A model generated the notes under the pieces. The model saw nothing but the letters and a program-made list of their open reading frames with translations. It had not been told where the DNA came from and did not search any database. Position numbers and translations under genes: made by a program. A DNA stretch of 35,408 bases from a virus, in the IMG/VR virus record IMGVR_UViG_3300025087_000218, positions 1-35,408 of that record, one strand, 5' to 3'. The stretch's first letter is position 1. Each line of letters starts with the position of its first letter. Positions 8,784-29,615 of the stretch are shown here, piece by piece.

Positions 8784-11700
8784 TTAAAATCTTTTTCTAG
8801 GTGTAGCATTAACAGAGAAATCATGAATTAATATAGATTTGTTTGCAGAGTTAGTAAATACTAGTCTTACAACTATATATTCACATTTAAAATGAGAGTT
8901 CTTATACCATTCAGTAGCAGGATATTTATTAGTTGTAGGATCAGGAATAGTTTCATAAGAAAGATGATCTATATTTAAATCTGTAATTAATGAACTAGTT
9001 TTAGTTTTAAGTACATCTCTAAACTTACTAAAATGCCAACTTCCACCAATCTTTCTAGTATTACCTGTTCCATATCCTACATTAGCTAATGATATAATAT
9101 CACTATGTTTATTATTAGTAAATATAATAATCTTACTTAATGTAGTAGTTTCTAATGGATTAAGACTAATATCTCTACATGTAGTTGCCCATTGAATAGA
9201 ATCAAATAATTTATTAAGATTTTCAGGATTACAAATAATAGGATCTATTTTACTTTCATAATACGTACCATAATATAATCCTTTATTACCATTATGTTTA
9301 TAAATAAGATTACTAGTAATCTCTACTTCTCCTTCTAATACAGTACCATTTTTAATACTATATAATTCTTTCTTAAAAGAAATCATATTAACAGGTACAA
9401 AACTATGAAAGCATAACCATCCTCCCATATATCCTATATCTTTAATATAATTTAAGTTAGGAGAATATGAAATAGTAAATGCAATATTAGCTTTCTTATT
9501 AAATATATATCTTTCTTGTTTAGTATCCCATATAGCTAATATACCCTTACCATTAAAAGGATTATCTTCATTGAAGTTTTTATCATAGTCTGCATTAATA
9601 GGAGCATCAGTAATATTATATTTAAGATTAGTATTAAACCATTTAGTCATTCCAATAGAACTAATCTCTTTAGCTTTATATCCTTTATATAAGAATATTC
9701 TACCTCTTTCTTTATCAACAAATATAATACCATTTAATGATGAATCATTAGCAAACATACATTGATTACCAACATATCCTTCATTATCTCCATACATTAT
9801 TTCTTCAGGTTTATTCTCAAATAGATTAGCTGAACCTAAAGCTATAACTGTACTATCATTAACATTAAGTTCGTCTTTCTTTCTGAATACAAATAGACCA
9901 TATTTCATAGAAACTAGAAGGTCTTTATTATCAGCAATTACATTCCATATTGGACCTTTATCTCTAGGCATTTCTATATAAGAAGATGAAGGAAATATTC
10001 TCCATCCTGTAAATTGACCCTCAGAAGCTAATATTAAACTAGAAGCAACTCTATATGGAAACTTATATATGTCATCTAATGAAGGATCAAAGATAGGAAG
10101 AATAGCTTCTACATCATTTACAGAACTATAATCAAAATTATATCCTATCCATTGTTCAAGATCTTTAGCATATAGTATAACTCCACCAGGATTAGCCTCC
10201 ATTATCTTTCTCCATAGAGATCCTTCTGTATAACTACCTTCTCCAAGATGAGTACCTCCTCTTCCTACTACATTGTTAACTAAATTAAAATATGGAAAAG
10301 CAAATTCCTCTAATTCTTTACCTCTATGTTGTAATCCAATATTAGCAACAGAGTAACAAGGATATAAATAATAATGAAATTGACTACCTGTTCCCCATTC
10401 ATTATCTCCTGCAGGTGGAACTGGTGTTCCTTCATATCTAGTTACTCCATATAAACTTACATGACAATCTCCTCCATAGATATTATAATTTTCATAGTCT
10501 ATAGAATTAACATTAATCATTACATTAGTTCTAACAATCTGCTGATTAAACATTGAATTATAAACATTTAGTTTAAATGAGCAGAAGTTAGCTAGAGTTA
10601 ATACTTTATCAGTAGCATCATTGGTTGGAGTTGGAGTTGCTCCATTATCAAATTGTCCTCTATGATATATGTAATCTTCACCATTAGCATTAGATGGAGA
10701 GATATAACTATTATCTCTTTGCATATACTTAGATTCTGTAATCTTAACTAAAGGAGTTGCTCCTCCATATTTAGTTTCAACAACAAAAGCAGGATCAGTA
10801 GGATCAGTATCATATACTATAGTATTATCAGCAGCATCAGTATAATCATAATTTAATTGTCTTTCTGCATGAGTAACATTAAGAGCAGCTAGTGTACTAA
10901 TAAGATCAAATGAATGTTCTCTACAATACTTAAATCCATCATCAGTATCTACAGTAGTAATCATAGCTTGTCCTAAGACTGTACTATTACCTATAGTTCT
11001 TTTAGCATATAGTATTTCAAAGTATGTAGCTTTATCCTTTATTTCATCAGGAAATAACATACTAGTTGTATCTAATTGCAATCCTAATATAGTAGCTAAT
11101 TCAGTAGAAGGAACTACATCAACTCTAGCTGTAAACTTTATACTTCCAGTATATCCACCATTTACGGGAATAGGATTTTGTTCTTCATCAGTTTCAGTAT
11201 AACAACTGCCTCTAATTATTAAACTTTCTCCAGTAAATAAAACTATATCAACAACAGATACATCTAGAGTTATATTAATAGTATCTACACCAGCTCCTCC
11301 TTCTCCATTAGTATCCCAAACTTCATATTCAACCGTATTAACTCCAGCAACAGTTCTTTTTAATATTTGTACATATCCTTTTATTTTATGCCCACCACCA
11401 TGACTATTAAATGAACATTTAATATTACAATCATAATCAACTGTAATAGGTTGAGTAGCTGTAACTACAGTAATAATTCTTTTAGATTGTCCTAATGGTT
11501 CATAATCTCCAAAATCATCATTATTAATATCTAAATATTCAGTAAATGCTCCATATTGAAATCCTAAAACCTTTACATTTCCAGTATAAGTTTTCATTTG
11601 AGCTCCAATATATAACTGATCTATAGATACAGGAGCATCTAATAATACACTTCCAACATTAGTTAATACATCAGTATTATGATGAAGAAAAGGAATAGTA

Positions 11701-13208
11701 TTACCTCCACTAGTATCTTTAAGAAAATATAATGATGGAAACTTATGGTGTCTTACATGTTCATTTCTTAAGTCAACTCCATATGCTATAGGATTTTCAT
11801 CATAATCAGTAGTACCATCAAACTCACTATCATCAGGATAAGATTCACTAGCATTTTCCCAATATCCCATTTCACCATATTTAGCTGCTCCACCAAACTT
11901 AGTTGCAGTATTCTCAAGATGAAATGTTTTAGCTCCAGGATATATATCTAAAGCAGCAGCTTCAGTATCAGTTTGTGTTAAAGGATCAGGATCACAATCT
12001 TCAATATCACTAGCAACATGAGGTCTTCCAGGAATATGAAATAGTTTAGAAGTTTTACCATTCTTAAGATGAAATCTACCATATAAAGCATATATTTCAC
12101 CAGGCATAAAAGTCTTCTTGTTATATACTATAAAAGGATTCTTATATGAATCTATCATAGCATCTAACCCAACAGAATCTATAGCAATCCACTTAACTTT
12201 TATATTATTAGCATACTTTTGATATCTAACTTCAGGATCAACTTCTAGTCCTCCTAAATATAAATTATTATCTAATACATCTAATGATTTAACTTTACTA
12301 TAAATAGAATTCTTAGCTAATAGTATATCCATACTTAAATCTTGATATATCTCAGATCCTGTATGTACAACTATATTAGATAAAGTACTATTAGTTGCAA
12401 AAACTCCAGCTTTATATATACCATTAATTTTACTTAGATAGGCAATTTGATATCTATTATATCTTGTATCTAAATTATTAATAGTTATTTCAATAGCTTT
12501 AGATGTAACTGTTCCTGCAGGAGCTCCTTCTATAGTTTCCCAAGTTTCAGTATTACCAGAAGGATGAACTATAATAGGTTGTGATGCTCCTAACCATTCT
12601 CCAAAGAAACCATCAGATATTTCATATGAAATAAAATAATAATATACTCCAGATAATAAACTACCACCAACATATTGAGTATCTTTATAATTAAATAGTG
12701 GTGAATTATATTCAGGAAATAGATTAAATAAAGTTATATCACTAGGAGTAACTAATTCTAAATTACCATCTAATTCAGCTTGTATACTATCTACATTTAA
12801 GTATCTAGCAACGTTAGGATCTATTTTAGGATATTCTTGAGTTGCATCAGTAAATACTATAATTAATTCATTATTATTATTATATCCAAATACACCTTTG
12901 ATAGGATTTCTATAATCAAATCCAAAATAGGAACTATATATTAATTTAGTATAAATATTACCATCATAAACTCCTATCTCACTTTTATCAGTATTTAATA
13001 CTTCACTAAATATAATAACTCTATCTTGAGTTTTAATATGTCCAATGTAAAGATTTTCTACACCAATATTATCTTGATATACAGTACCATCTTCATTGAT
13101 AATATCATCAGTCCCTAAAGATAGAGAAAGATTGAGAGCGTATCTCCAACTTCCTGCGATAGAATCATTGAGAGATTCATCTCTTCTCATGCCTTTATTA
13201 AGCTTCAT
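8784..13208 (-). CDS. Tail muzzle (tail stabilisation) protein
   Basis: The protein has 1474 residues. Its N-terminus MKLNKGMRRDESLNDSIAGS and the following part that mentions a viewing-type pattern (IIFSEVLNTDKSEIGVYDG) match what I know of the crassvirus muzzle or stabilisation protein, which is distantly related to podovirus tail tube B and P22 gp10-type proteins. It forms the distal barrel of the short tail and closes the exit channel. A second family-like block lies at about residues 1120-1200 (GYVGNQCMFANDSSLNGII, then FVDKERGRIFLYKGYKAKEI), typical of beta-propeller repeats. The length suits the family (about 1400). The start overlaps the stop of the upstream connector gene by 11 bases, which suggests translational coupling. 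No signal peptide or membrane segment is seen. Confidence 0.82.
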   Translation of the reverse strand: MKLNKGMRRDESLNDSIAGSWRYALNLSLSLGTDDIINEDGTVYQDNIGVENLYIGHIKTQDRVIIFSEVLNTDKSEIGVYDGNIYTKLIYSSYFGFDYRNPIKGVFGYNNNNELIIVFTDATQEYPKIDPNVARYLNVDSIQAELDGNLELVTPSDITLFNLFPEYNSPLFNYKDTQYVGGSLLSGVYYYFISYEISDGFFGEWLGASQPIIVHPSGNTETWETIEGAPAGTVTSKAIEITINNLDTRYNRYQIAYLSKINGIYKAGVFATNSTLSNIVVHTGSEIYQDLSMDILLAKNSIYSKVKSLDVLDNNLYLGGLEVDPEVRYQKYANNIKVKWIAIDSVGLDAMIDSYKNPFIVYNKKTFMPGEIYALYGRFHLKNGKTSKLFHIPGRPHVASDIEDCDPDPLTQTDTEAAALDIYPGAKTFHLENTATKFGGAAKYGEMGYWENASESYPDDSEFDGTTDYDENPIAYGVDLRNEHVRHHKFPSLYFLKDTSGGNTIPFLHHNTDVLTNVGSVLLDAPVSIDQLYIGAQMKTYTGNVKVLGFQYGAFTEYLDINNDDFGDYEPLGQSKRIITVVTATQPITVDYDCNIKCSFNSHGGGHKIKGYVQILKRTVAGVNTVEYEVWDTNGEGGAGVDTINITLDVSVVDIVLFTGESLIIRGSCYTETDEEQNPIPVNGGYTGSIKFTARVDVVPSTELATILGLQLDTTSMLFPDEIKDKATYFEILYAKRTIGNSTVLGQAMITTVDTDDGFKYCREHSFDLISTLAALNVTHAERQLNYDYTDAADNTIVYDTDPTDPAFVVETKYGGATPLVKITESKYMQRDNSYISPSNANGEDYIYHRGQFDNGATPTPTNDATDKVLTLANFCSFKLNVYNSMFNQQIVRTNVMINVNSIDYENYNIYGGDCHVSLYGVTRYEGTPVPPAGDNEWGTGSQFHYYLYPCYSVANIGLQHRGKELEEFAFPYFNLVNNVVGRGGTHLGEGSYTEGSLWRKIMEANPGGVILYAKDLEQWIGYNFDYSSVNDVEAILPIFDPSLDDIYKFPYRVASSLILASEGQFTGWRIFPSSSYIEMPRDKGPIWNVIADNKDLLVSMKYGLFVFRKKDELNVNDSTVIALGSANLFENKPEEIMYGDNEGYVGNQCMFANDSSLNGIIFVDKERGRIFLYKGYKAKEISSIGMTKWFNTNLKYNITDAPINADYDKNFNEDNPFNGKGILAIWDTKQERYIFNKKANIAFTISYSPNLNYIKDIGYMGGWLCFHSFVPVNMISFKKELYSIKNGTVLEGEVEITSNLIYKHNGNKGLYYGTYYESKIDPIICNPENLNKLFDSIQWATTCRDISLNPLETTTLSKIIIFTNNKHSDIISLANVGYGTGNTRKIGGSWHFSKFRDVLKTKTSSLITDLNIDHLSYETIPDPTTNKYPATEWYKNSHFKCEYIVVRLVFTNSANKSILIHDFSVNATPRKRF

Positions 13209-13908: not shown

Positions 13909-14847
13909 TTATAATTTAACAAAAGTTTCTATATATGTAGGATCAAATCTAAGTAAACAATTTAGTTTATCTCTAAATCCTAATTGTCCACTTTCAAGAA
14001 TATCTCTTTCTGATTTTGCATTATTAGTAAAATCAACCTGACTTCTAGTTTCATTCATTATGAAATTAGATGGAATGATATTATAATCAGGATTTATTCT
14101 TTTTTTCTGAAACATTAGCCAAGCATTTTCTTCTTTATGTAAATGAACTAACCATTTAAATCCATCAGGATTAGTAGTTTCATTATAAGTATAAGGAATC
14201 AGTGTATGAATAAATGCTCTTTTATTTAAAATACCTTCTATATAATCTTTATATATAGAAGGATAATGCTTATTAGCGTAATATTTAAGAAGTTTAAAGG
14301 ATTCTCCCCAATCAATTTTAAATTTAACTCCTCTAGATAAATTAGCTTTTTTACTAGCTACTCTTAATATTCCAACGTTATATATATTATATTCAAATCC
14401 ATTTAGTAAACTTATAGAAACTCTAGTATAAAAGGTATTAACAATCCTATAATATAATTGATATTCAATATTACATAGAGTTAATACTTTCTTTATTTCT
14501 TCAAGTTTATATTCATTGATAAGAGTAGCAATTAGTATTTTAAAGTAAGCTGTAATAATATGAGTTTTAGATATAAACCAATCCTCACTATACATATTCT
14601 TAATATTAATTTCTTCTAGTTGTTCTCTAGTAAATCTAAAAGTACCATCCAGATACTGTCTAACTTGATTGAATATATCAATTCTTAGATTATGACTTTC
14701 TCCAACATGAACTAATTGAGTAGCTATATATAAAGCTTTTCTTCTAGTTTCATTTAATAAATCATCTATTACTTTAGATTGTTCACTAATTGAATTAGTA
14801 AAGTAACTATATGATTCTTTTATATCTAAATTAGTTGTTGTCGACAT
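13909..14847 (-). CDS. Neck-region structural protein, 312 aa, function unknown
   Basis: This 312-residue soluble protein is mostly helical in the first 150 residues. It is followed by a block with GVKFKIDWGESFKLLKYY (about residues 172-190) and then GFKWLVHLHKEENAWLMFQK (about 229-248), a Trp-rich pattern that I have a vague memory of from Bacteroidota phage proteins without a firm function. The start overlaps the stop of the upstream 216-residue gene by 17 bases, and the stop is 3 bases before the next gene, so it belongs to the same translational unit as the connector and muzzle genes. A neck-assembly or virion-associated role is inferred from this placement. I would not assign a biochemical activity. 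Confidence 0.6.
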   Translation of the reverse strand: MSTTTNLDIKESYSYFTNSISEQSKVIDDLLNETRRKALYIATQLVHVGESHNLRIDIFNQVRQYLDGTFRFTREQLEEINIKNMYSEDWFISKTHIITAYFKILIATLINEYKLEEIKKVLTLCNIEYQLYYRIVNTFYTRVSISLLNGFEYNIYNVGILRVASKKANLSRGVKFKIDWGESFKLLKYYANKHYPSIYKDYIEGILNKRAFIHTLIPYTYNETTNPDGFKWLVHLHKEENAWLMFQKKRINPDYNIIPSNFIMNETRSQVDFTNNAKSERDILESGQLGFRDKLNCLLRFDPTYIETFVKL

Positions 14848-15481
14848 GAGTAGGAGTTACTTTATCTTTATCATCAATTATTCTTAATTCACCAGAGAGT
14901 AATTTAGCTTTTATATTACCAATTAGATCAATTGGTACAGGAAATTCCATAGCATCATCACATATAATATCTCCTACTCCATAATCATTAAATCCTTCAA
15001 CATAAATATTAGGATTTTCATAAGCGGCTACAACAGTTATAGTCTCAAGTTTAATATTATTTAGAATATATATTCTATTATTCCTCCAAACATAAACAAT
15101 AGCTGTTGCAATCTTATCTAAATTCTGTCTAAACTTAAATTCAGTAGGACTACTAATCCAAGTTAATGTAGGCCCGCCTAATCCTGATACATGAATGAAA
15201 GGCTCAGGAGTATTATATCTAATTGGAGTAGGAATCTTATTTACTGTTCTAAGTATTTTCTTTCCATATATAATATTTTCTGCAGTACCATCAACAATCT
15301 CTAAATCAGCTTCATATGGAATAGTATAATAATGATGGGCGTCACCCTTATTCATCTCTTGACGAATAAGGGCTGCCCTCTCATTAATAATTAAATCCAT
15401 AACTCTACGTAGGAACATCTCATCAAAAGGTCTATTTAATGCATCTATTATTTGAGTACCATATACTCTAAGTGTAGCCAT
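14831..15481 (-). CDS. Neck ring/adaptor protein candidate, 216 aa
   Basis: The protein has 216 residues. The N-terminal helix includes FLRRVMDLIINERAALIRQE (about residues 23-42), followed by a beta-rich body with ILRTVNKIPTPIRY (about 76-89) and VYVWRNNRIYILNN (near 130-143). This order, a helix with INERAALIRQ followed by a RxVNKIPxPIR block, resembles head-tail connector proteins in crAss-like phages as I remember them. It is the first gene of the connector-muzzle unit and overlaps the next gene by 17 bases. Its leader is purely A/T-rich. A role as an adaptor ring below the portal is likely, but the precise ring is uncertain. Confidence 0.62.
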   Translation of the reverse strand: MATLRVYGTQIIDALNRPFDEMFLRRVMDLIINERAALIRQEMNKGDAHHYYTIPYEADLEIVDGTAENIIYGKKILRTVNKIPTPIRYNTPEPFIHVSGLGGPTLTWISSPTEFKFRQNLDKIATAIVYVWRNNRIYILNNIKLETITVVAAYENPNIYVEGFNDYGVGDIICDDAMEFPVPIDLIGNIKAKLLSGELRIIDDKDKVTPTHVDNN

Positions 15482-15503: not shown

Positions 15504-15872
15504 TTATTCTGCAACTAGATTTTCATGCTTACTAATAAACATAACAATAATAGTAAGTACAAAATCAATAACCTGTTCAATCATAATTTCAGCTTCTTCT
15601 TTAGCAATATTAAATTCAGTCTGAAAAGCAAGAAGTACTTCTTCACGCTCAACATCACTCATATCTCCAAGTTCTGAAGCTGCATATTTAAAACTTTTAA
15701 AAGGAATACCAATTGCCTTGAAACTAATATCCATTCCTTCAGCAACAGTTACATTACTTTCATCTTTTTCAGTTGTAGGATCATCAGTAATAGCACTAAC
15801 AATTGAATTAGACACTTTAGCTCCCCAAATTAGAAGCTTTTTAACATTTTCAATACCAAATACTTCTTCCAT
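15504..15872 (-). CDS. Small acidic protein with C-terminal hydrophobic helix
   Basis: The protein has 122 residues. An amphipathic N-terminal helix (KKLLIWGAKVSNSIVSAI, about 11-28) is followed by an acidic linker (30-46) and a helical C-terminal half. The latter includes DVEREEVLLAFQTEFNIAKE (73-92) and a hydrophobic stretch IDFVLTIIVMFI (102-113) that could insert in or lie on a membrane. It neighbours two small membrane proteins. I do not recognise a named family. Small acidic helical proteins of this kind occur near holin-like genes in Bacteroidota phages, so a role in lysis or membrane association is possible but unproven. Confidence 0.55.
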   Translation of the reverse strand: MEEVFGIENVKKLLIWGAKVSNSIVSAITDDPTTEKDESNVTVAEGMDISFKAIGIPFKSFKYAASELGDMSDVEREEVLLAFQTEFNIAKEEAEIMIEQVIDFVLTIIVMFISKHENLVAE

Positions 15873-15920
15873 TTTATTTAATTATTAATAGTTAATAATA
15901 GCAATATTACTATTATATCT

Positions 15921-16187
15921 TTATTTATGTGATATATGCTTACTTGAAGTACTAAATTTAGCAGGTACAAACCAAGTAGCTACTCCAATTAGAAAACCTA
16001 ATGAATATTTAATCCATTTAGGAATACCTTCAATAGTCATCACAAAGGACATTCCACTAGCCATAGGGCCTGCTACATAAGCAACGGTAGTCCACCATGG
16101 AGAAGCAGGAGAATTATATCTCTCTTTAGCAATTTCAACAAATGTATCTTTAGATTCTATAGTAGATACTTTATTTATATCTTCCAT
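15921..16187 (-). CDS. Holin-like small membrane protein, 88 aa
   Basis: The protein has 88 residues and two predicted membrane segments (about 31-50 and 60-75) joined by a short turn containing EGIPKW, with a basic C-terminal tail. This matches the size and topology of many phage holins, but also of other small phage membrane proteins. The gene starts one base before the stop region of its upstream neighbour ends (stop at 16189, ATG at 16187) and is preceded by AGGAGG, which is rare in this window. No endolysin is seen nearby, so the holin call rests on topology only. Confidence 0.5.
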   Translation of the reverse strand: MEDINKVSTIESKDTFVEIAKERYNSPASPWWTTVAYVAGPMASGMSFVMTIEGIPKWIKYSLGFLIGVATWFVPAKFSTSSKHISHK

Positions 16188-16188
16188 T

Positions 16189-16515
16189 TTAACTTCCTCC
16201 TCTTGTTTCTAATTTAATATAATCAATCAGTAAAGTTTTTAATTCAGGATCTGTGTTAGGATCTCTAATTAAAATTAATGATACAGTTCTAAGTTTAATA
16301 TCATATTTAATCATATTTTCATTAGTAGCATTAATTTCCTTATATATAGCAGTATGATCTTCTCTGTTATTTGATCTGTCTATACTATAAGAAGTTAAAA
16401 ATCCTGCAAATAATACTGCTATAATAGCTTCAAGAAAGTGGTCACTCCACCATATACGTCGTCTTATAGATTTTCTAGTTCGAGTAGTTTCATTACTAGT
16501 CCTATTCATATTCAT
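16189..16515 (-). CDS. Single-span membrane protein, possible spanin-like or lysis accessory
   Basis: The protein has 108 residues. A strongly basic N-terminus with RKSIRRR (14-20) precedes one membrane segment (about 26-44). A polar helical domain of about 60 residues follows, predicted outside the inner membrane (N-in by the positive-inside rule). The topology resembles an inner-membrane spanin subunit, but the helical part is short and no lipoprotein partner is seen. Two in-frame ATGs (codons 1 and 3) are possible starts; I kept the first. Its last codons (Arg-Gly-Gly-Ser) contain the AGGAGG that precedes the next gene. The function is unknown and a lysis role is a guess from neighbours. 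Confidence 0.5.
   Translation of the reverse strand: MNMNRTSNETTRTRKSIRRRIWWSDHFLEAIIAVLFAGFLTSYSIDRSNNREDHTAIYKEINATNENMIKYDIKLRTVSLILIRDPNTDPELKTLLIDYIKLETRGGS
16196..16201 (-). promoter_or_regulatory. Shine-Dalgarno-like AGGAGG before the 88-aa membrane protein
   Basis: On the minus strand AGGAGG is followed 8 bases later by the ATG at 16187. Other leaders that I read in this window are A/T-rich and lack such a motif, so this one stands out. It also encodes Arg-Gly-Gly of the upstream protein and may be coincidental. Confidence 0.45.
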
Positions 16516-16530
16516 ATTTTTATATAATTA

Positions 16531-16959
16531 TTAATGCACTTCTCTTATATAAAAAACATCTTTAATCCAACCTTCTATTATAGTTTCAACAGTATCCCGT
16601 TCCATCATAAATTTAATCTCTTCATATTTAGATTTATCACCAGTTAGATAATAAACTGCTTCAGTAGACGTAGAATCAATTGTAATAGTATCTGTAATAC
16701 TAACCCAACTCATTCCAGGAATAGAACCTTGAATATATAATAACGTAGTAGTAGAATCTATATCTCCATAATTAACTCCATATACCCATGTAAAATTATC
16801 ATTAGGCATAGCAAGATTTATAGTTTCTAAAGTATCAGTATCTGCAAGATAAGCAGTATCATGAGAAGTAAAGTGAATAGCATTTTCACCCCATTGCATT
16901 CTTTGTCCAAAAGAACAAATTGAAATTAGAAGAATCCCTATTAATAGTATCTGTTTCAT
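16531..16959 (-). CDS. Small secreted protein with Bacteroidota-type signal peptide, 142 aa
   Basis: The 142-residue protein begins with a clear signal peptide, MKQILLIGILLISICSFG, with Gln at the likely mature N-terminus (about residue 19). Cys15 precedes the cut but the surrounding residues fit a lipobox poorly. The mature part is Thr/Asp/Ser-rich and probably beta-rich, with no domain that I recognise. It is the last of four adjacent genes whose products start with signal peptides, directly after fibre-like genes, so a surface or adhesin-accessory role is plausible. The start is preceded by an A/T-only leader. Confidence 0.65.
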   Translation of the reverse strand: MKQILLIGILLISICSFGQRMQWGENAIHFTSHDTAYLADTDTLETINLAMPNDNFTWVYGVNYGDIDSTTTLLYIQGSIPGMSWVSITDTITIDSTSTEAVYYLTGDKSKYEEIKFMMERDTVETIIEGWIKDVFYIREVH

Positions 16960-16963
16960 ATTA

Positions 16964-17809
16964 TTAATTATCTAATTGTTTCCAAGCAGAACCATCATAT
17001 CCATAAAAATGACCATCTGTATCCATTCTCATATCACCTTTAATAGGATAAGTAGGAGCATATTCTATAGTATCTAATCTTATATAATAAAAGTTAGTTA
17101 TATAATCAGATTGTGGAGAAAATGTTATAGGAATAGAATAATAAGCTCTCAATTTAATTTGATCTACTGATAAAGTAGAATCTAAAGCTATAATTCTAAT
17201 ATTAAATGTAGAATCTTCTAACATATCTGCAATAGTAGCATCCGCATTTACAATTGAATTAGCTATTGCTGAATCTAATAATACATCTAATCCTAACAAA
17301 TTACTTATTCCACCAAATATTACAGTAGTATCAGTAGTTAATTTAGTCGGAAGAGAATTATAAGGAGTAGTATCATTTCCAATCATAAAATAAGTATAAT
17401 AATCTCCTACAGCTGATATATTTTTATATTCTATAGAAAGATTAACTCCACTTATATCTCCAACAGGAACAAATGTAGGAAATGTATACTTAGCATATGA
17501 AGAGTCTGCTGCTACAAATACTGCATATTGATTATTAGATGTGTATGCATTTTGTACAGTAGTTACAGCAAGTTTACTTAAGGCTAGTGTATCACTAATT
17601 GCTACATATGAAGTAGTATCTCTAATAGTTAAACTAATAGAAAACAAATTAGTATCTAATACTTCATTATTGTATGTAATATTTCCTTCAAATGTAGCAT
17701 CTCCTTTAGAATAAAACTTACCAAGTGCATCTAGATTAAAGAAAGCTTTATCTTGCTGAGCAAACATTAGTAAAGGAGTAAGTAATAAGAACAACAATAG
17801 TTTTTTCAT
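16964..17809 (-). CDS. Fibre-like secreted protein with signal peptide, 281 aa
   Basis: I chose the ATG at 17809 rather than the one 8 codons upstream (17833), because it places a standard signal peptide, MKKLLLFLLLTPLLMFA, at the very start, with Gln-Gln following the probable cut. The mature protein is beta-rich, full of Asp-Thr/Asp-Ser pairs, and has no membrane segment. The end, GDMRMDTDGHFYGYDGSAWK, is a small motif common at the C-termini of fibre and adhesin modules in Bacteroidota phages and prophages. It follows the 218-residue FISUMP-like gene and precedes the 142-residue secreted protein. A fibre or surface-associated role is likely, but the exact location in the virion or host envelope is unknown. 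Confidence 0.65.
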   Translation of the reverse strand: MKKLLLFLLLTPLLMFAQQDKAFFNLDALGKFYSKGDATFEGNITYNNEVLDTNLFSISLTIRDTTSYVAISDTLALSKLAVTTVQNAYTSNNQYAVFVAADSSYAKYTFPTFVPVGDISGVNLSIEYKNISAVGDYYTYFMIGNDTTPYNSLPTKLTTDTTVIFGGISNLLGLDVLLDSAIANSIVNADATIADMLEDSTFNIRIIALDSTLSVDQIKLRAYYSIPITFSPQSDYITNFYYIRLDTIEYAPTYPIKGDMRMDTDGHFYGYDGSAWKQLDN

Positions 17810-17850
17810 AATAATTAAATTAATATTAAGCAATTATATAACCAAATAGT

Positions 17851-18507
17851 TTACTTTACACATCTAATTGACATGCCCATACTTTTAGGATACATTGAAG
17901 TATTAGATGTAGCACTCCATGCAGTATAATTATAAGCATAGTTTTGATAAACACTAACTTGCTCATTACTCCAATACATTGCATATTTATTAGCATACAT
18001 CAATACACCAGTCCTATAATATAGGTATCCTGATGCACTTAATTTAAGTGGAGAAGCAAATGCATTATTAAGACTTGTCCATCCAGCATCTACATTAGTC
18101 CACTCATGCAAAGTTGGTATATGCCAACCAGCACCTAATTCAATAGTACATGGATCGTTACTTGGTAGCCAATTAGAATTAGTTGAAACAGAATAATTCC
18201 AAGTAGTTTCAGGAAGTCGTGAGCCAGCATAAGCATATCCTTGTTTTACTCCAAACTGCCAATACCAGCCAGAAGCAGATACATCATTAGGTGAAGTAGC
18301 TTCATGAGTAGAACCAAGATTACTAGTAATCCAACATTTATCAGGTTCACCAGGAATATTAGTAGTTACAGCATAAGTTGCTATAGTTGATATAGGAGCT
18401 ACACCATTTACTGTAAAGTGATTAACAATAATAGGAACACAATCTTGTGCAAATATAGTAGCAATAAAGATTGGTAGAATAAGTAATGATAAAATGATCT
18501 TTTTCAT
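17851..18507 (-). CDS. Secreted FISUMP-like domain protein, 218 aa
   Basis: The protein has 218 residues and a signal peptide, MKKIILSLLILPIFIATIFA, followed by Gln-Asp-Cys. The mature part resembles the Fibrobacter succinogenes major paralogous (FISUMP) domain seen in many secreted Bacteroidota proteins: CWITSNLGS near residue 58, GWHIPTLHEW near 128, YWSNEQ near 172, and the typical ending SMGMSIRCVK. It is Tyr/Asn/Ser/Trp-rich near the C-terminus and contains several Cys. It is essentially a single domain after the signal peptide. The domain type also occurs in the neighbouring 1679-residue fibre-like protein. The role is unknown: adhesin tip, decoy or secreted surface protein are all possible. 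Family membership is moderately certain. Confidence 0.68.
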   Translation of the reverse strand: MKKIILSLLILPIFIATIFAQDCVPIIVNHFTVNGVAPISTIATYAVTTNIPGEPDKCWITSNLGSTHEATSPNDVSASGWYWQFGVKQGYAYAGSRLPETTWNYSVSTNSNWLPSNDPCTIELGAGWHIPTLHEWTNVDAGWTSLNNAFASPLKLSASGYLYYRTGVLMYANKYAMYWSNEQVSVYQNYAYNYTAWSATSNTSMYPKSMGMSIRCVK

Positions 18508-18543
18508 AATAGTGAGTTTTAAAATGTTAATTAATATAATAAT

Positions 18544-21500
18544 TTATTCTATATAAATAGTAGCTGCAATATAACAAGATGTTGCTGTACTAGACATAGT
18601 AGGCATTGTTATTTTCAATTCAAGAATATCTCCTTGAGCAACAGCTACAGATAATGCAGTATTAGAAAACAATTGAGTATTACTATTTGCAACAGACATA
18701 ATTTCTGTAGCTGAATTATTGACATTTACACTCATTATAAAGTTTCCACTTGTATATACTCCACCTGCAATCTTTACAAAATATATATAAGCAGCACGAA
18801 CAGTTCCTCCTTTAGGAATATAACATCTATATTGATTTTGTGTAGTAGTTAATGCTACTGTAGCACTTCCACAATAATATGTAGTTGCACTTAATAAATT
18901 AGTAGCAGTAGGAGCCATTTGTAAACTATATCCTATTGGCATAATATTACCTGCTTTTCGATAATCTCCAGTAGCATTAATATCACCAGTTACATCAAGT
19001 TTATATGATGGAGTATTATCATTTAATCCAACATCACCATCCACATCAATATAGAGAGAGTTGGCCGAACTGTTATTTTCAATTACTACCACATCTAAAG
19101 AGTTTTCATGATCTCTTATTTTAAACTCGCCAGTAGAAGTAGCTTTAAATCTCCAATCAGTACCAGACCCATTATCCTTCATCTTAAATGTAGCCCCTCC
19201 AATTCCACCATCATTTATAAGAGCAATTTCAGGAGATGATATATTCTTATCAATAAGAAAAGATGTTCCATTCCATGTTACAGAAGTATCACCTTCAATA
19301 GAATTACCATCTGTAAATATTGCTAATTGATTATTAATAGGAGTTCCTGTAGTATCAACCAATTCTCTAATATCATTATAAGTTGCTATTCCTATTCCTG
19401 CAGCAGCAGTTGTGTCTAACCATTCTAATGCAGAACCCGGAAGTGTTTCTAAATACCTACCATCTAAATCAGTAGTATTTCCACCACTAATAGTTAGTTC
19501 TCCAGTAGAGGTATTAAAAGATGTTGTTTGTGCATCAGTGTTATCTAAATATCCACTTAGATCAACTGATGTTCCATCACCTGTTAAACTAAGAGTATTA
19601 ACAGATAAACTTAAATCTTGTGCATCAGTATTATCAAGATAGTAAGCACCATGTTGACCATCAAGTTTATCAGCATCTAATGCCCAATTAGCCGTATCGG
19701 CATTTACATTAACACTTCCCCCGAGAATACTATCTAAAGGGACAAGTTTTAATACATACTCCCAAGCGGATAACCCCCCAGAAGGATAGCTTGCTCCAAA
19801 TCCAATTCCTATGCTATCCTTATCAAACATAGCTACATATCCTGAAGGAATACTATCAAATAGATGTTCCATATGTCCTTCTACACCAATGGGACTAGGT
19901 GCTAATACTAAATTTTGTGTTAACATAAATATTGAATCTCCTACAGAGCCATAATTAAAACTAGATGTTTTAATATAAGTTCTAACTTCATTTTCTTCTA
20001 CCGCATCTCTATATGTACCCACAAGAGCATACCAAGCCCAAATATCCTCAATGGTTAATATTCCATCACCAGTAAAATCATAATATGGAATACTATCATA
20101 TGGCATATCATATCTGTACATATTATTAATTCGTTGAAAAAAGTCTGCATTGTTAATTATAGAATCCATATTGAGATCGAGAGTAGAACCAATGGATTGA
20201 TAGAAGGACATAGTATCACCAGTATATTTCCATCCTCCGGGGTCAGCCCCAGGACTCATTACAATATTCATATAAATACTATCAAGCTCATTGGTTGTAT
20301 CGGCATCTACTTCGGCAGTCAACCAATTAGGAGTATAAGGAATTAACTGATTAGTTTCATTAACCATAGGAATATCTCCTTGATCAGCACCTGCCCAAAT
20401 TACATCAGTGAGATCATTAAATGCCATATCAGGAACAGAATCTACAACAATACTTCCAATCCAAGGTCTTATTTGGGCAGTATCTAAATCCCATTCTACA
20501 TCTGAAGTTTGATTATAATATGCACCTATAATTCCATAATCACCCGTAAGATGAGCAGTCGTATCACCCTCATTTCCAATAACAGCATCAACCTCTACAA
20601 CAGTAAAATTAATAGTATCATTATCAGGCTCTATAGTTAAATTAGAACTTTGACTTTCTAATGTAACTCTTGGAGAAGTGCTTGTGTTAGAAGTTATTTG
20701 AGCACCTGTTGTACCATAATCTGTAACATCAAGTAAGCCTTCATTAGTAATACTTCCATCAACCTCAACAGTAAGATAATTAGCATCAACATAATAAACA
20801 GTACTATCTTCATTATTCCATAACATATAATAACCACTACCTGTTGTTATATCAGAAAAACGAGGATAATTAAGAGGAGTAACTGAAAAACCTTTTTGTT
20901 CACTTGAACCAGACATCCCATCGTTATAATAATATCCGATCCATGCTATTTGATCACTATATGCAGTTGCTTTTGGTGCTAAATCTACATTACCCCAAAT
21001 ATTAATTAAATTCTTATCCCACGTTACATCAGTGAAAGAAATTCCATTATCAGTTTGAACTCCATCATAATTTATAAAATAAGAACCAGTGATTAAATTC
21101 TGAGTCATAATATGATTACCAAGATTATCAGCAACAGTAGTTCCTGGAGGTGTAGCCCATGTGCCATCAGCTCTCATGAAATTAGCAGAACCTCCACCAG
21201 ATTGAGGAACAAGTCCTCTATTTGTAGAAGTGAATAGATTAATAGTATCTGCAGTACCTCCACTGATAGACATAATACCAGTAGATTTAGCATAAGATAA
21301 AGACTGAGAATCTGTATTAACAGGAAGGGTTGTTTTACCAATAGTATCATTACTCACAACCAATACTTCAGTATATAGTGGTTTAGAAGGAACTATTAAA
21401 AATATATTAGTATTATCGTCTACTATATTTGTAGTGTATAATTTATTCCATTTTGTAGGCTTTGATCCAAGACTCATACTAATTTCATCAGGTCTTAAAT

Positions 21501-23583
21501 AACCATTATTACATATTAAAGCATTTAATCCACCTATCTCCCAATAAAATCCAGTAGCCTTATTATATAATATATTATTCAAAGATGAAACTGTATCAAT
21601 ATGAATATTATCACCTACCCTTCCTACAAGCAAAGCATATTGAGTATGATCATCATTAAGTAGGCTATCTAACTCTCCATGATCTATTATACTTCCACCC
21701 AAAAATAATCCAGTATCACCAACACTAAAGCGTTTAGTTATTGGATTATAGTAAGTAATATATTCTGATTTTCCACTTGTAGGAGATTGAATCATAATAT
21801 CTGTAATATCTAATACTCCATCCATTCTTAGTTCATTATCATAAGTAGGACTCGATTCTATATAAGTAAAAGAAGAATCTTCATTATTATTATAAGAACA
21901 TCTAGCTTCTGTTGTTAAAGCTGCCCAAGTTGCATTGTCTGTTACTTCGGTAATAGTAGATCCATCACGATATAAAGTTTCACAAAGATTATCAGCTAAC
22001 CATTCTTGAGTATCTATGCATATGGTTCTATATCTTTTACCATCATTACCTACATATAATCCTTCTTCACCATTAGATAGAATAGTAGATGTTTTAATTA
22101 ATCTAAGAGGAATTCCTATAGCATAATTAAAATTATAAAAACTACTCCACGCATCACTATTATAATCCATATAATATCCAGTCCATGTTGTAGCATTATA
22201 TAAGTATCCTAAATAACCTCTTTCCATAATACTTCCAAAAGTACCATCTGTATTAATTCTTCTTCCTCCTCCACGCAAATTAAATCCTAATTCATTAGTA
22301 GCTCCTGTATTAGGTGTAGTCCAATGAGTAATACCAGTTTCTTTTAATTTACCTGCTGTTACCCCAACATAAGCATAAAAAATATCCCATTTGGTTTTAT
22401 CAGGAACTACCCAACTATCAGAACTTGTAATCTTTCTTGTATCTGTAATGGCATACCAATTATATAAATATCCATAATTTACAATTGTTGTATCATTATT
22501 AGTATAGAAATAAGGATATCCGGGATCAGTTTGTTTCTTTTGTGAATAAGGCATTACCTTAATTATAGTATCAGCATTATCTAAATCCCAAGTAGAATCT
22601 TGAACAGATATAGATTGATTAATAGTACTAAAGTTTAATGAAGAAAGTTCACCAGTAACATCATTCCAACCAACAACTTTAGTAGGAATGCTTGTAATAT
22701 TAGTATTTATTCCAGGAATATAAACTTCCCCAACACTATCGACTTTAAAAGCATATGTTCCATCATGTTTAAGATAAGCTAAACTATCTTTGCTAAATAT
22801 ATATGTTTGATACCATATAACAGTATCCCCATTATATAAAGAAAAAGGATAATCCCCATAATTACTTAAACTTTGATTTAATGTTGAATATCCATCAAAT
22901 GTATTAGTAATTTGAAATTGTAAATTTGGTACATATGACAATCCTCTTGAATTAGCATCTTGAATATAAACTTCATCCAATGCTGTTGATCCAATAACAT
23001 CCAAACTTCCATTAGGATTAGAAGTACCAATACCAACAGAAAATAGAGAATCACTTAACCATACTTTTTGTAAAGGATAATCTATAGACCATATACTATC
23101 TCCTCCAATTAATCCTCCATCAACGTCTAATGTACCACAAATTCGTATAATATTATTAGCAAAATCAAAATATAGAAGAGGACAAATAGTATCACTATTA
23201 TCAATCCCTCCTATATTATCCAAATCTGCAAAAATACTATCTCCTCCAGTCTCATTTCCAATCCATACAGTACCATCAGCATGTTCAATATTTCTACCTG
23301 CATAAGTACCAAGTATTACATTTCTAGAACCAGTCTTAACCTTTTTAAATGCTCCCCAACCACCCACAAAATTACTATCAGCTACAGGACTTGTAAAATT
23401 ACCTGAATTACTAATATAAACATTCTTAGTTCCATAAGCATTAATAAGATTCCATTGTCCTGCTTTAACTTGTCCTTTAGTAGAATTTGTAAGAGGTAAT
23501 ATAACATTGTCCCCTGTCAAATTTTGACTGTATATAAAATAAGGTATAATAAATAGTAACAATGTAAAAAATAGCTTATTCAT
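18544..23583 (-). CDS. Giant fibre-like adhesin with signal peptide, FISUMP-like and dockerin-like regions
   Basis: The 1679-residue protein starts with a signal peptide, MNKLFFTLLLFIIPYFIYS, and Gln as the likely first mature residue. Visible parts in order: a fibre motif with NVILGTYAGRNI (near 88-99); a FISUMP-like region with its two halves in swapped order (about 368-575); DDHTQYALLVGRVG (near 647-660) and GLVPQSGGGSANFMRADGTW, both common in phage tail fibres; a dockerin-like pair of EF-hand loops (about 1130-1190); two copies of YLDNTDAQ near 1320-1345; a motif of the type PSYKLDVTGDINATG; and a C-terminal beta-rich domain ending in IAATIYIE. Such modular proteins serve as receptor-binding fibres, but a Sec signal on a virion fibre is unexpected. 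The role as tail fibre is inferred from motifs and from its place in the virion operon. An alternative is a secreted host-surface adhesin encoded by the phage. Confidence 0.75.
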   Translation of the reverse strand: MNKLFFTLLLFIIPYFIYSQNLTGDNVILPLTNSTKGQVKAGQWNLINAYGTKNVYISNSGNFTSPVADSNFVGGWGAFKKVKTGSRNVILGTYAGRNIEHADGTVWIGNETGGDSIFADLDNIGGIDNSDTICPLLYFDFANNIIRICGTLDVDGGLIGGDSIWSIDYPLQKVWLSDSLFSVGIGTSNPNGSLDVIGSTALDEVYIQDANSRGLSYVPNLQFQITNTFDGYSTLNQSLSNYGDYPFSLYNGDTVIWYQTYIFSKDSLAYLKHDGTYAFKVDSVGEVYIPGINTNITSIPTKVVGWNDVTGELSSLNFSTINQSISVQDSTWDLDNADTIIKVMPYSQKKQTDPGYPYFYTNNDTTIVNYGYLYNWYAITDTRKITSSDSWVVPDKTKWDIFYAYVGVTAGKLKETGITHWTTPNTGATNELGFNLRGGGRRINTDGTFGSIMERGYLGYLYNATTWTGYYMDYNSDAWSSFYNFNYAIGIPLRLIKTSTILSNGEEGLYVGNDGKRYRTICIDTQEWLADNLCETLYRDGSTITEVTDNATWAALTTEARCSYNNNEDSSFTYIESSPTYDNELRMDGVLDITDIMIQSPTSGKSEYITYYNPITKRFSVGDTGLFLGGSIIDHGELDSLLNDDHTQYALLVGRVGDNIHIDTVSSLNNILYNKATGFYWEIGGLNALICNNGYLRPDEISMSLGSKPTKWNKLYTTNIVDDNTNIFLIVPSKPLYTEVLVVSNDTIGKTTLPVNTDSQSLSYAKSTGIMSISGGTADTINLFTSTNRGLVPQSGGGSANFMRADGTWATPPGTTVADNLGNHIMTQNLITGSYFINYDGVQTDNGISFTDVTWDKNLINIWGNVDLAPKATAYSDQIAWIGYYYNDGMSGSSEQKGFSVTPLNYPRFSDITTGSGYYMLWNNEDSTVYYVDANYLTVEVDGSITNEGLLDVTDYGTTGAQITSNTSTSPRVTLESQSSNLTIEPDNDTINFTVVEVDAVIGNEGDTTAHLTGDYGIIGAYYNQTSDVEWDLDTAQIRPWIGSIVVDSVPDMAFNDLTDVIWAGADQGDIPMVNETNQLIPYTPNWLTAEVDADTTNELDSIYMNIVMSPGADPGGWKYTGDTMSFYQSIGSTLDLNMDSIINNADFFQRINNMYRYDMPYDSIPYYDFTGDGILTIEDIWAWYALVGTYRDAVEENEVRTYIKTSSFNYGSVGDSIFMLTQNLVLAPSPIGVEGHMEHLFDSIPSGYVAMFDKDSIGIGFGASYPSGGLSAWEYVLKLVPLDSILGGSVNVNADTANWALDADKLDGQHGAYYLDNTDAQDLSLSVNTLSLTGDGTSVDLSGYLDNTDAQTTSFNTSTGELTISGGNTTDLDGRYLETLPGSALEWLDTTAAAGIGIATYNDIRELVDTTGTPINNQLAIFTDGNSIEGDTSVTWNGTSFLIDKNISSPEIALINDGGIGGATFKMKDNGSGTDWRFKATSTGEFKIRDHENSLDVVVIENNSSANSLYIDVDGDVGLNDNTPSYKLDVTGDINATGDYRKAGNIMPIGYSLQMAPTATNLLSATTYYCGSATVALTTTQNQYRCYIPKGGTVRAAYIYFVKIAGGVYTSGNFIMSVNVNNSATEIMSVANSNTQLFSNTALSVAVAQGDILELKITMPTMSSTATSCYIAATIYIE
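20014..20196 (-). other. Dockerin-like EF-hand pair in fibre-like protein
   Basis: Two Ca2+-binding-loop-like segments, LDLNMDSIINNADFF and DFTGDGILTIEDI, lie about 30 residues apart at roughly residues 1134-1180. Spacing and residues match type I dockerin repeats (DxNxDxxINxxD). Confidence 0.6.
21859..22482 (-). other. FISUMP-like region with halves in swapped order
   Basis: The part that normally ends a FISUMP domain (GYLYNWYA near residue 370, GKLKETGITHW, GFNLRGGGRR near 435) comes first. The part that normally begins it (DGKRYRTICIDTQEWLADNL near 513, then RDGSTITEV and ARCSYNNNED) follows. It is either a circular permutation or two partial domains. Confidence 0.6.
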
Positions 23584-23601: not shown

Positions 23602-23922
23602 TTAATAGGTAATTTCAAATATATCATATAACTTATAAAGATTTATTCCATTACATTGTAAATTATATTCAATAGTATTCATACTAAATGTAGCTTCTAC
23701 TTCTTCAAGAGTTTCTCCCATTATTATTCTTTTCTTAATGCCCATTACAAGTATAAAAGCTAACCAATATTGTTCTAATTTAGTATAGTTATTAGATGAT
23801 CCTTGAGTACCTTCTTCATTAAATTGTCTAATAACACTAACTAAATACTTATTCCAATATTCTACAAATAAAGATTTAGTATAACTATGATTACTAAAAG
23901 AAGGAATATTTGAATGTATCAT
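23602..23922 (-). CDS. Hypothetical protein, 106 aa
   Basis: This 106-residue soluble protein has one moderately hydrophobic helix (YWLAFILVMGIKKRIIMG, about residues 52-69), not long enough to call a membrane span with confidence. No motif is recognised. It starts 3 bases after the stop of the 256-residue gene, which places it at the end of the head-completion/neck group just before the fibre cassette. A small virion or assembly protein is possible, with the alternative of an accessory protein for the fibre that follows. Confidence 0.55.
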   Translation of the reverse strand: MIHSNIPSFSNHSYTKSLFVEYWNKYLVSVIRQFNEEGTQGSSNNYTKLEQYWLAFILVMGIKKRIIMGETLEEVEATFSMNTIEYNLQCNGINLYKLYDIFEITY

Positions 23923-28136: not shown

Positions 28137-29615
28137 TTATCGTGAAAACTTCATATAATAAGAAGTAGTATAGTTCTTCATAGTGATACCTTGTGACATA
28201 AGTACTTCATAAGAAGCTTCATCAGTTTTGCTACTCAGAAGTTTAGACTCCCTAATAGCACCCCATGATTCAGGAAGATTAGTAAGTCCTTTATATACAC
28301 CAGTAAGAATCTCACGACCCTTTTCAGCTACTAACTGAATATTACGCTCACCATCAGAAGTCATAGACTGATCAAGAAGGATAATATCATAAGATGTATC
28401 AGGAAATCCCTTATACATATTACCATTAGCCTTATCCAATTCAGCATACAAACCATTATCAAAGATAGAAGCTTTCTTAATAGTTATGATATGACCATCA
28501 ATTGTTTTAAACTGATTGAAATATGTACCATAAGACAGATAACCATCTTTACCACTAGTGATTTCTTTCTCACCTAAAGCCTGATAATAAGACTGTGTTC
28601 CAGCCTCATTTTTAATAGCTTCATTAAACATACGAATACCACCAGAACCTGTATAGAAAATAAGTTCCATGGGAGTTTTATCAACCCTATTAGAAAATAA
28701 CCTATTAACAACAGAGTCAAGTTTATCTACAGTAAGAACAGAATATGTTTCATACTGATCAGTAGTCTTAAGGATTTCCTTAATACCAGCACCCTTAGGA
28801 ATAGGTTGATTAGTCTTTTCATCAATAAGGTGAATAACACCATATTGATCTCTATTATAAACACTATTCCAAAGATCTTCTTCTAGCATCAACCTACGGT
28901 CGATTTCAAATTGTTTCATCTCGTGTGGCATCCATAAGTTAGTCTTACCACCACCTTCAAGATCAAATTCAATATTAGTAACCTTATTGGCTACATTACC
29001 ACTGATATTCTTTGAGAAACGGAGAAATCCAAACTGATTAGTCCATTTACCAGGAGCCTGACTTCTACTTGATGTACCTTCTGAATAAGCACCTGCAACA
29101 GAAGGAGGAGCCTGTACCCAGTAAGTACCAGCAATAAAGTTAGAAGCAGCAACATATTCAGCAGGATTTGCTGTATTAATCCTAAATGTATAGATATAAC
29201 GATTAGCACCATCCCTAATAGGATCACCTTGAACACGGAGATTATTAAGTTTGTCAGCTGGAGTAGCACCGTAATAACGTAAGAATGTATCATCTTCCAT
29301 AACAACTTGGAAAGGCTGAAATCCTTGACCAGGATAAGACTGTCCACCAATAAGTGCAACAACCTTTGATACATGTTTCATTCTACCCATTACATTCCAA
29401 GTGTATTGAGTATCGTTTAAAGTTTTAGGAGTAAGAGAAACTAATCCAGATTGTCCTTCAGTTAATGAAAGCAATGGAAACATTTCGCTATCTTTACCCC
29501 ATAAATAAGTCAAAGCAGTACTAAGACTTACAGGATCTATCAGTTTGTTCTTATAAAGAACGTTTTCATCTGTATACCTTTCATTATTATAGGTATCAGT
29601 ATAGAGTTCTCTCAT
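28137..29615 (-). CDS. Major capsid protein
   Basis: The 492-residue protein fits the crassvirus major capsid protein (HK97 fold) in length, in its N-terminus (MRELYTDTYNNERYTDENVL, then PVSLSTALTYLWGKDSEMFP) and in its place after portal and scaffold-like genes. The body contains alternating beta and Gly-rich segments (KHVSKVVALIGGQSYPGQGF, about residues 79-98) and ends GITMKNYTTSYYMKFSR. The shell of a large T-number capsid would be built from this protein. No propeptide cut site is obvious. The leader is entirely A/T-rich, without Shine-Dalgarno, although this should be one of the most strongly expressed genes. I recognised the family by eye; no alignment was possible. Confidence 0.85.
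   Translation of the reverse strand: MRELYTDTYNNERYTDENVLYKNKLIDPVSLSTALTYLWGKDSEMFPLLSLTEGQSGLVSLTPKTLNDTQYTWNVMGRMKHVSKVVALIGGQSYPGQGFQPFQVVMEDDTFLRYYGATPADKLNNLRVQGDPIRDGANRYIYTFRINTANPAEYVAASNFIAGTYWVQAPPSVAGAYSEGTSSRSQAPGKWTNQFGFLRFSKNISGNVANKVTNIEFDLEGGGKTNLWMPHEMKQFEIDRRLMLEEDLWNSVYNRDQYGVIHLIDEKTNQPIPKGAGIKEILKTTDQYETYSVLTVDKLDSVVNRLFSNRVDKTPMELIFYTGSGGIRMFNEAIKNEAGTQSYYQALGEKEITSGKDGYLSYGTYFNQFKTIDGHIITIKKASIFDNGLYAELDKANGNMYKGFPDTSYDIILLDQSMTSDGERNIQLVAEKGREILTGVYKGLTNLPESWGAIRESKLLSSKTDEASYEVLMSQGITMKNYTTSYYMKFSR

Follow-up and report, generated by a model that had tools for sequence, protein, structure and literature searches.

Four adjacent genes with Q-rule signal peptides in the virion operon of a crass-like phage: candidates for exported tail-fibre proteins

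In the textbook view, tailed phages assemble wholly in the cytoplasm and then lyse the cell, whereas the coat proteins of filamentous phages assemble in the membrane during extrusion. Those coat proteins are virion proteins with Sec signals (for phage hijacking of secretion, see PMC4823517). Here we describe four adjacent genes, each predicted to encode a Sec signal peptide, in the virion operon of a crass-like phage represented by the linear 35.4-kb virus record IMGVR_UViG_3300025087_000218 (positions 1 to 35,408, hereafter the window). Their signals follow the Q-rule, with a glutamine directly after the predicted cut, a form of processing that Bochtler et al. describe for periplasmic and further exported proteins (PMC5837995). 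Phage-encoded Q-rule proteins have been noted in Porphyromonas gingivalis Nixviridae prophages as evidence of host-secretion use (PMC10367356); these are five genes of unknown function, and the passages of that paper covered here report no virion proteomics or fibre link. For the North Sea flavophages Ingeline and Nekkels, there is a one-line published remark on signaling peptides of lyase-domain proteins (PMC8776804), and the conflict with a virion location is not discussed in the passages covered. Within the same phage order, crAss001 gp22 and the tail hub (PMC10172136) provide a fibre role in the virion, but gp22 has no signal and docks by residues 1-26, and in crAss001 the capsid gene is preceded rather than followed by the fibre genes. 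No paper addressing signal-bearing fibres in virions was found in the open-licence literature searched.

All four window proteins (1679, 218, 281 and 142 aa) have the features expected of signal peptidase I (SPI) substrates under the Q-rule: one or two basic residues in the n-region, a hydrophobic core free of interruptions, a permissive residue at -3, a small residue at -1, and Gln directly after the cut. Their N-termini read MNKLFFTLLLFIIPYFIYS↓QNL, MKKIILSLLILPIFIATIFA↓QDC, MKKLLLFLLLTPLLMFA↓QQD and MKQILLIGILLISICSFG↓QRM, respectively, where the arrow marks the predicted cut. The 281-aa length is counted from an ATG, and a TTG 24 nt upstream would give 289 aa. Intergenic gaps within the block are 4-41 nt, and virion genes lie on both sides. 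Signals were scored with a heuristic, not SignalP, based on n-region charge, an uninterrupted hydrophobic core and small residues at -3 and -1. The scorer as first written passed three of the 22 complete window genes, all within the four-gene block, while the 281-aa protein, which has Met at -3, passed only after the scorer was relaxed to allow Met there. No signal start of this kind was found by the scorer in the other 18 complete window genes.

These signals are far more frequent in the block than chance would predict. Random N-termini generated from each protein's own composition passed the scorer in 0.8-1.8% of cases, and in 0.04-0.08% with Gln at +1. The rate of Gln+1 signals was 0.56% across 892 open reading frames (ORFs) of 16 crass-like records, and the chance of four consecutive Gln+1 signals among 23 genes is about 2e-8. 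The observation in the initial annotation, four adjacent Q-rule signal genes at this place in the virion operon, is borne out by the coordinates, the scorer and this chance estimate. Over the whole data set, a possible Gln+1 site was present in 34 of 44 signal-bearing proteins of this kind (many of them homologous), compared with 12% of control ORFs. A lipobox with Cys at +1 was not found in the four window proteins, and NCBIfam identified no C-terminal sorting domain of the type IX secretion system (T9SS) in them or in the signal-bearing Cellulophaga proteins described below. Export of the four proteins by Sec and SPI under the Q-rule is a well-supported prediction. Gln+1 signals are also a sequence clue to host phylum, pointing to Bacteroidota, which are the hosts of crassviruses.

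Blocks of a similar type are found in cultured Cellulophaga phages, in which the products are recorded in virions. The phages phi10:1 (gp091-095), phi19:1 (gp101-104), phi18:3 (gp085-087), phi46:3 and phi13:2, together with Nekkels and Ingeline, carry three to five adjacent tail-fibre or lyase genes, mostly with Q-rule signals, and the window block is likewise a run of adjacent signal-bearing fibre genes, located where the virion operon encodes the tail. This set comprises siphoviruses and Pachyviridae, not crassviruses, and its lyase domain is absent from the window. Using the GenBank record notes that mark proteins detected by tandem mass spectrometry (MS/MS), we found four adjacent Q-rule proteins recorded as structural in phi10:1 (gp091-094), four adjacent signal-bearing proteins in phi19:1 (gp101-104, three of them with Gln at +1) and three in phi18:3 (gp085-087), for a total of 11 signal-bearing proteins recorded as virion proteins in three phages. 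In these comparable cases, the records contradict the premise of the initial annotation that virion proteins should not carry export signals. Signal-bearing non-fibre genes (phi10:1 gp004, gp044 and gp058; phi14:2 gp001 and gp002) are not recorded as structural, which argues against bulk contamination of the virions by exported proteins. None of the 17 MS/MS proteins examined in phi14:2 has a signal.

The Cellulophaga signals are under strong purifying selection and thus not vestigial. Over seven phages, the gp093-type signal had a synonymous divergence (pS) of 0.277 and a nonsynonymous divergence (pN) of 0.000, and pN/pS was 0.26 for the gp094-type signal. The signal-bearing N-modules are 83-95% conserved, while Nekkels and phi18:3 have exchanged the C-terminal domain, as in tailspikes. 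Carriers of the gp093 N-module include Nekkels and Ingeline, which are siphoviral by transmission electron microscopy, and Pachyviridae, of which the member Gundel is podoviral. Nearly identical signal-bearing modules move between siphoviruses (Assiduviridae, Duneviridae) and Pachyviridae, whose tails are unrelated. No carrier of the gp093 N-module without the signal was seen among those examined in the phage collection. The pectate-lyase domain of phi10:1 gp093 is also present in the phi14:2 tail protein gp097 and in phi4:1 gp052, so one enzyme domain rides virions both with and without a signal-bearing N-module. In Maribacter phage Colly_1 (L148:6923-8929), the N-terminus of a protein annotated as a tail fiber protein is a lipoprotein-like signal (LVGC).

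Among crass-like relatives, the site of the block is a slot that is either filled or empty. In relative G011 (locus L031), the syntenic position next to the phrog_9863 gene is occupied by three adjacent genes with signal-like N-termini: a 501-aa fibre, whose signal, with Pro at -1, did not pass the scorer, a 274-aa ConA-like lectin (VTA↓QTP) and an 878-aa Pel9A-like beta-helix protein (SNA↓TTY). These belong to different protein families from those of the window, and the FISUMP domains of G011 sit instead in its signal-less muzzle-like protein. The slot is empty in the nearest relatives of G011 (L027, L028 and L033), and in L010, whose capsid protein is 67% identical to that of the window, it holds small membrane and lipoprotein-like genes. 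G005 and G010 each carry a pair consisting of a 284/292-aa protein and a beta-helix protein, both with signals, adjoining a signal-less fibre. Although they are not the same in sequence, the beta-helix signals in G005 and G010 both retain a hydrophobic core and the A↓TN cut, and so behave as a signal rather than a sequence-specific docking peptide. Scans with the 284/292-aa and beta-helix proteins also recovered signal-bearing pairs in unrelated phages, namely L131 (276 and 538 aa), L136 (435 and 664 aa) and L138 (778 and 600 aa, the former matching tail-fibre PHROGs). L137 also has signal-bearing genes of the beta-helix and fibre-like kinds, there as single genes.

Domain content also links the 1679-aa protein to virion proteins of these relatives. 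Its FISUMP segment shares 45% identity with one repeat of the signal-less muzzle-like protein of G011 and 37% with a signal-less FISUMP protein of G005, and residues 1409-1453 are 53% identical to a signal-less protein encoded beside the ring gene in G009. Signal-bearing blocks of fibre, lectin and lyase genes recur in relatives (G011, G005, G010), and the FISUMP homologues in the relatives' virion proteins have no signal.

The four genes most likely form an adsorption (tail-fibre/lectin) cassette in the crass-like tail-fibre slot. We favour, with about even confidence, the explanation that their products are genuinely exported tail-fibre or lectin proteins that reach virions, joining them probably at lysis. 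This explanation is suggested by the four adjacent Gln+1 signals, the crassvirus operon context and the domains common to signal-less virion proteins of relatives, as well as by the recurrence of signal-bearing blocks, the Cellulophaga MS/MS records, purifying selection, and modular swapping of N- and C-terminal parts. Since no T9SS domain or lipobox was recognised, SPI substrates would by known routes stay in the periplasm until lysis, which favours export followed by periplasmic storage and joining at lysis. The proteins would be synthesized late, together with the virion proteins, exported via Sec, and cut by SPI before Gln, and the resulting N-terminal Gln would probably be capped as pyroglutamate. 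They may then fold and be stored in the periplasm until, at lysis, mature fibres and lectins would meet virions assembled in the cytoplasm and at least some would bind. Their role would be adsorption or glycan binding, and in relatives also glycan cleavage. Attachment of the four proteins to virions of this phage is what we infer by comparison with the phages above.

Recurring, selected export signals on fibres recorded in virions imply either a different assembly route or an unrecognised role of export before lysis, a question that is directly testable in cultured Cellulophaga phages. We tentatively suggest, as a possibility with somewhat less than even chances, that many tailed Bacteroidota phages finish their tails outside the cytoplasm, with host-range fibres, lectins and depolymerases that are Sec-exported, Q-rule-processed, folded and stored in the periplasm, and attached only at lysis. 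If this is true and the fibre-virion interface is generic, it could explain the exchange of the same signal-bearing fibre modules among phages whose tails are unrelated. The question bears on host range and fibre annotation of Bacteroidota phages, gut crassviruses included.

Several points weigh against virion attachment of exported fibres in this phage. It is known from sequence alone, and we found no precedent in tailed phages for an exported fibre meeting a virion. In crAss001, gp22 docks by residues 1-26, a stretch that would be removed in the window proteins (PMC10172136). No homology of the window proteins to the Cellulophaga proteins was detected (blastp, E 1e-4), and the link is one of arrangement and signal type, not of the same protein family; the Cellulophaga MS/MS support is itself a GenBank note. 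Signal-bearing fibres are absent from the best-studied crassviruses, crAss001 (first 50 kb), phi14:2 and crAss002 (first 45 kb), and also from Fpv20 (part read) and B124-14, so the trait is not universal. Lastly, the 3' end of the cassette is seen in this assembly only, although its 5' end is confirmed in others.

The main rival explanation is that the proteins are exported but are not parts of the virion. They would instead be secreted lectins, adhesins or lyases, present in the periplasm and then in the surroundings after lysis, and their genes would have been selected as a moron-like cassette whose place in the virion operon is incidental. Proposed roles include loosening capsule or matrix so that progeny are not trapped, masking receptors on debris and blocking superinfection, and Bartlau et al. 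suggest that phage lyases may help progeny escape debris (PMC8776804). Strong signals, the Pel9A-like beta-helix lyase and ConA-like lectin in the relatives' cassette, and the absence of the cassette from that site in other relatives are consistent with secretion, and the movement of near-identical modules among phages whose tails are unrelated would suit a function that does not depend on virion architecture. However, 11 such proteins are recorded in Cellulophaga virions, unlike other signal-bearing proteins of the same phages, a constant N-module with a swapped C-domain is the habit of virion tailspikes, and domains of the window block are also present in virion proteins of relatives; we consider purely secreted roles possible but rather unlikely. 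A third explanation would keep the hydrophobic N-terminus out of export altogether, either because it is retained as a virion docking peptide or because fibre folding or late timing outruns Sec. The docking of crAss001 gp22 via its first 26 residues (PMC10172136) is a parallel for this, residues 1-33 are the most conserved stretch of the G005/G010 284/292-aa pair, and the comparable Cellulophaga proteins are found with virions. Yet Gln at +1 (four of four here, 34 of 44 overall) would have no evident function in the absence of SPI cleavage, the G005/G010 beta-helix signals vary in sequence while keeping hydrophobicity and cleavage site, and in MW202608 a signal-less beta-helix protein has its start where the mature form of its G011 homologue is predicted to begin. 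Non-export is improbable on this evidence.

The initial annotation had offered two interpretations, display of the proteins on the surface of the infected cell and signals kept merely from captured host secreted genes. Neither is the best one, although its observation is confirmed. Surface display found no positive support, with no recognisable T9SS domain and no lipobox. Recent capture of host secreted genes, with the signals as functionless leftovers, can draw on the occurrence of FISUMP domains and such fibre modules in Bacteroidota cells as well, and PF09603 was present in Bacteroides ihuae among 14 control genomes. Nevertheless, codon usage and GC content at third codon positions in the four genes match the rest of the phage, and recent capture was rejected because codon usage of the block is indistinguishable from that of the remaining phage genes. 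The trait also recurs in many phages, unrelated Bacteroidota phages among them, with Gln+1 intact, the Cellulophaga-family signals are under purifying selection, and a pattern scan of genome_contigs found no cellular relatives of the 1679-aa protein. Leftover signals are accordingly very improbable. Matches to MT835907 and MT838140 look like Bacteroides chromosomal pieces and were set aside. An artefact, with bacterial genes misjoined to a phage contig or hydrophobic N-termini arising by chance, might be suspected of a single linear 35-kb metagenomic contig. The independent assemblies L002, L003 and L077 (99.8% identical, with single-nucleotide polymorphisms, SNPs) confirm the upstream, virion-gene side of the block; L002 and L003 extend into the 1679-aa gene including its signal, and L077 ends about 100 nt short of the signal. 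With this junction crossed or reached by SNP-bearing assemblies, which rule out misassembly and host contamination, and with the low chance probability, uniform composition and recurrence of the arrangement in relatives, an artefact is scarcely credible.

The window contains the virion operon of a crass-like phage, with all genes on the minus strand, including terminase, portal, major capsid protein (MCP), ring-like proteins and a muzzle-like protein (Table 1). Membership in Crassvirales is indicated by the crassvirus-type MCP, which is 45% identical to the cr127_1 MCP, and by the single-strand order of terminase large subunit, portal, MCP, ring and muzzle genes (phrog_6681, phrog_6547, phrog_11589, phrog_9863 and phrog_15100, with homology to other crass-like records). 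The terminase gene is incomplete at the window edge, and its counterpart in assembly L002 encodes 761 aa. The four-gene block is bounded by a 106-aa gene at 23602 and a 108-aa gene at 16189. Inspection by eye shows stretches of hydrophobic, membrane-like character in the 88- and 108-aa products encoded downstream of the block.

Table 1. Features of the four-gene block and of neighbouring virion genes, in window coordinates. Arrows mark predicted cuts.
Feature	Position	Strand	Remark
1679-aa fibre-like protein, predicted Sec signal (IYS↓QNL), FISUMP domain, phage/Bacteroidota fibre modules	18544..23583	-	
Predicted signal peptide of 1679-aa protein, 19 aa	23527..23583	-	unchanged in independent assemblies L002/L003
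FISUMP (Fib_succ_major) domain, aa 343-466 of 1679-aa protein	22186..22557	-	PF09603 67.5 bits, cut-off 33.9; TIGR02145 44.2 bits, cut-off 41.65
218-aa FISUMP-like protein, predicted Sec signal (IFA↓QDC), four Cys in mature chain	17851..18507	-	weak FISUMP matches below cut-offs
Predicted signal peptide of 218-aa protein, 20 aa	18448..18507	-	
281-aa fibre-like protein, predicted Sec signal (MFA↓QQD), no family match	16964..17809	-	
Predicted signal peptide of 281-aa protein, 17 aa	17759..17809	-	
142-aa protein, predicted Sec signal (SFG↓QRM), no family match	16531..16959	-	
Predicted signal peptide of 142-aa protein, 18 aa	16906..16959	-	
Crassvirus MCP, marks phage group, no signal	28137..29615	-	PF23898 152.8 bits, cut-off 27
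Three small genes (122, 88, 108 aa) between four-gene block and ring-like virion genes, no cleavable signal	15504..16515	-	
Conserved virion protein (phrog_9863) flanking four-gene block	14831..15481	-	synteny anchor; in relative L031, immediately follows the corresponding block
Muzzle-like virion protein (phrog_15100), no signal	8784..13208	-	crAss_MUZ_C below cut-off

The 281- and 142-aa proteins of the block gave no match to a known family. FISUMP scores of the 218-aa protein were below the curated cut-offs (18 vs 33.9 for PF09603 and 25.8 vs 41.65 for TIGR02145), and by eye the C-terminus of the 281-aa protein (MDTDGHFYGYDGSAWKQLDN) looks similar to fibre tails. AlphaFold models of the mature 218-aa and 281-aa proteins were unusable, with mean predicted local distance difference test (pLDDT) scores of 38 and 34. 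In viral_contigs, close relatives of the 1679-aa protein came only from the same population, and none were found for the 281-aa protein. By eye, the 1679-aa protein has a segment (LNMDSIINNADF ... YDFTGDGILTIEDIWAWY), roughly in its middle to C-terminal third, that is reminiscent of a dockerin/EF-hand calcium-binding repeat; it had no Pfam match at 0.01. A link between FISUMP and a diversity-generating retroelement (DGR) was considered and rejected, as the 28 SNPs that distinguish L003 from the window all lie outside the FISUMP domain; none of the window proteins searched was recognised as a reverse transcriptase. According to a published survey of DGRs, the phage proteins that they target have no signal peptides (PMC6199706).

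We made several further observations in the related records. The G011 muzzle-type protein (L100:7990-13965, equal to G011:47990-53965, minus strand) has 1991 aa and no signal, and contains four FISUMP domains (188.6 bits), which suggests host-binding domains on the tail tip. In the podovirus MW202608 (L072:8052-10712), a beta-helix protein related to that of G011 starts at the predicted mature end (MTTYYIAPS). Three signal-bearing beta-helix proteins (L031:17616-20249, L108:16988-19282 and L119:8194-10188) end in a short repeated Lys/Asn-Gly-Lys motif (NKDGKIVKYNGKTIKY, NKAGITVVYKGKVLKY and MHNGKHKKHNGKYLMK, respectively); among beta-helix proteins of this data set, the NGK-type C-terminal motif occurs only in signal-bearing ones. 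Assembly L077 is LBTB01000015.1, a crass-like contig filed in a Shapirobacteria metagenome-assembled genome of the candidate phyla radiation (GW2011 series), a placement that is probably a binning error. Small signal-bearing proteins of about 120-140 aa with Gln at +1 (SIS↓QVK, STS↓QVA, CIS↓QQK) are encoded upstream of the terminase in other crass-like records (L024:2150-2560, L036:2477-2905, L020:2857-3273 and L007:3992-4402), and a spanin or periplasmic lysis factor is a possible identity for them.

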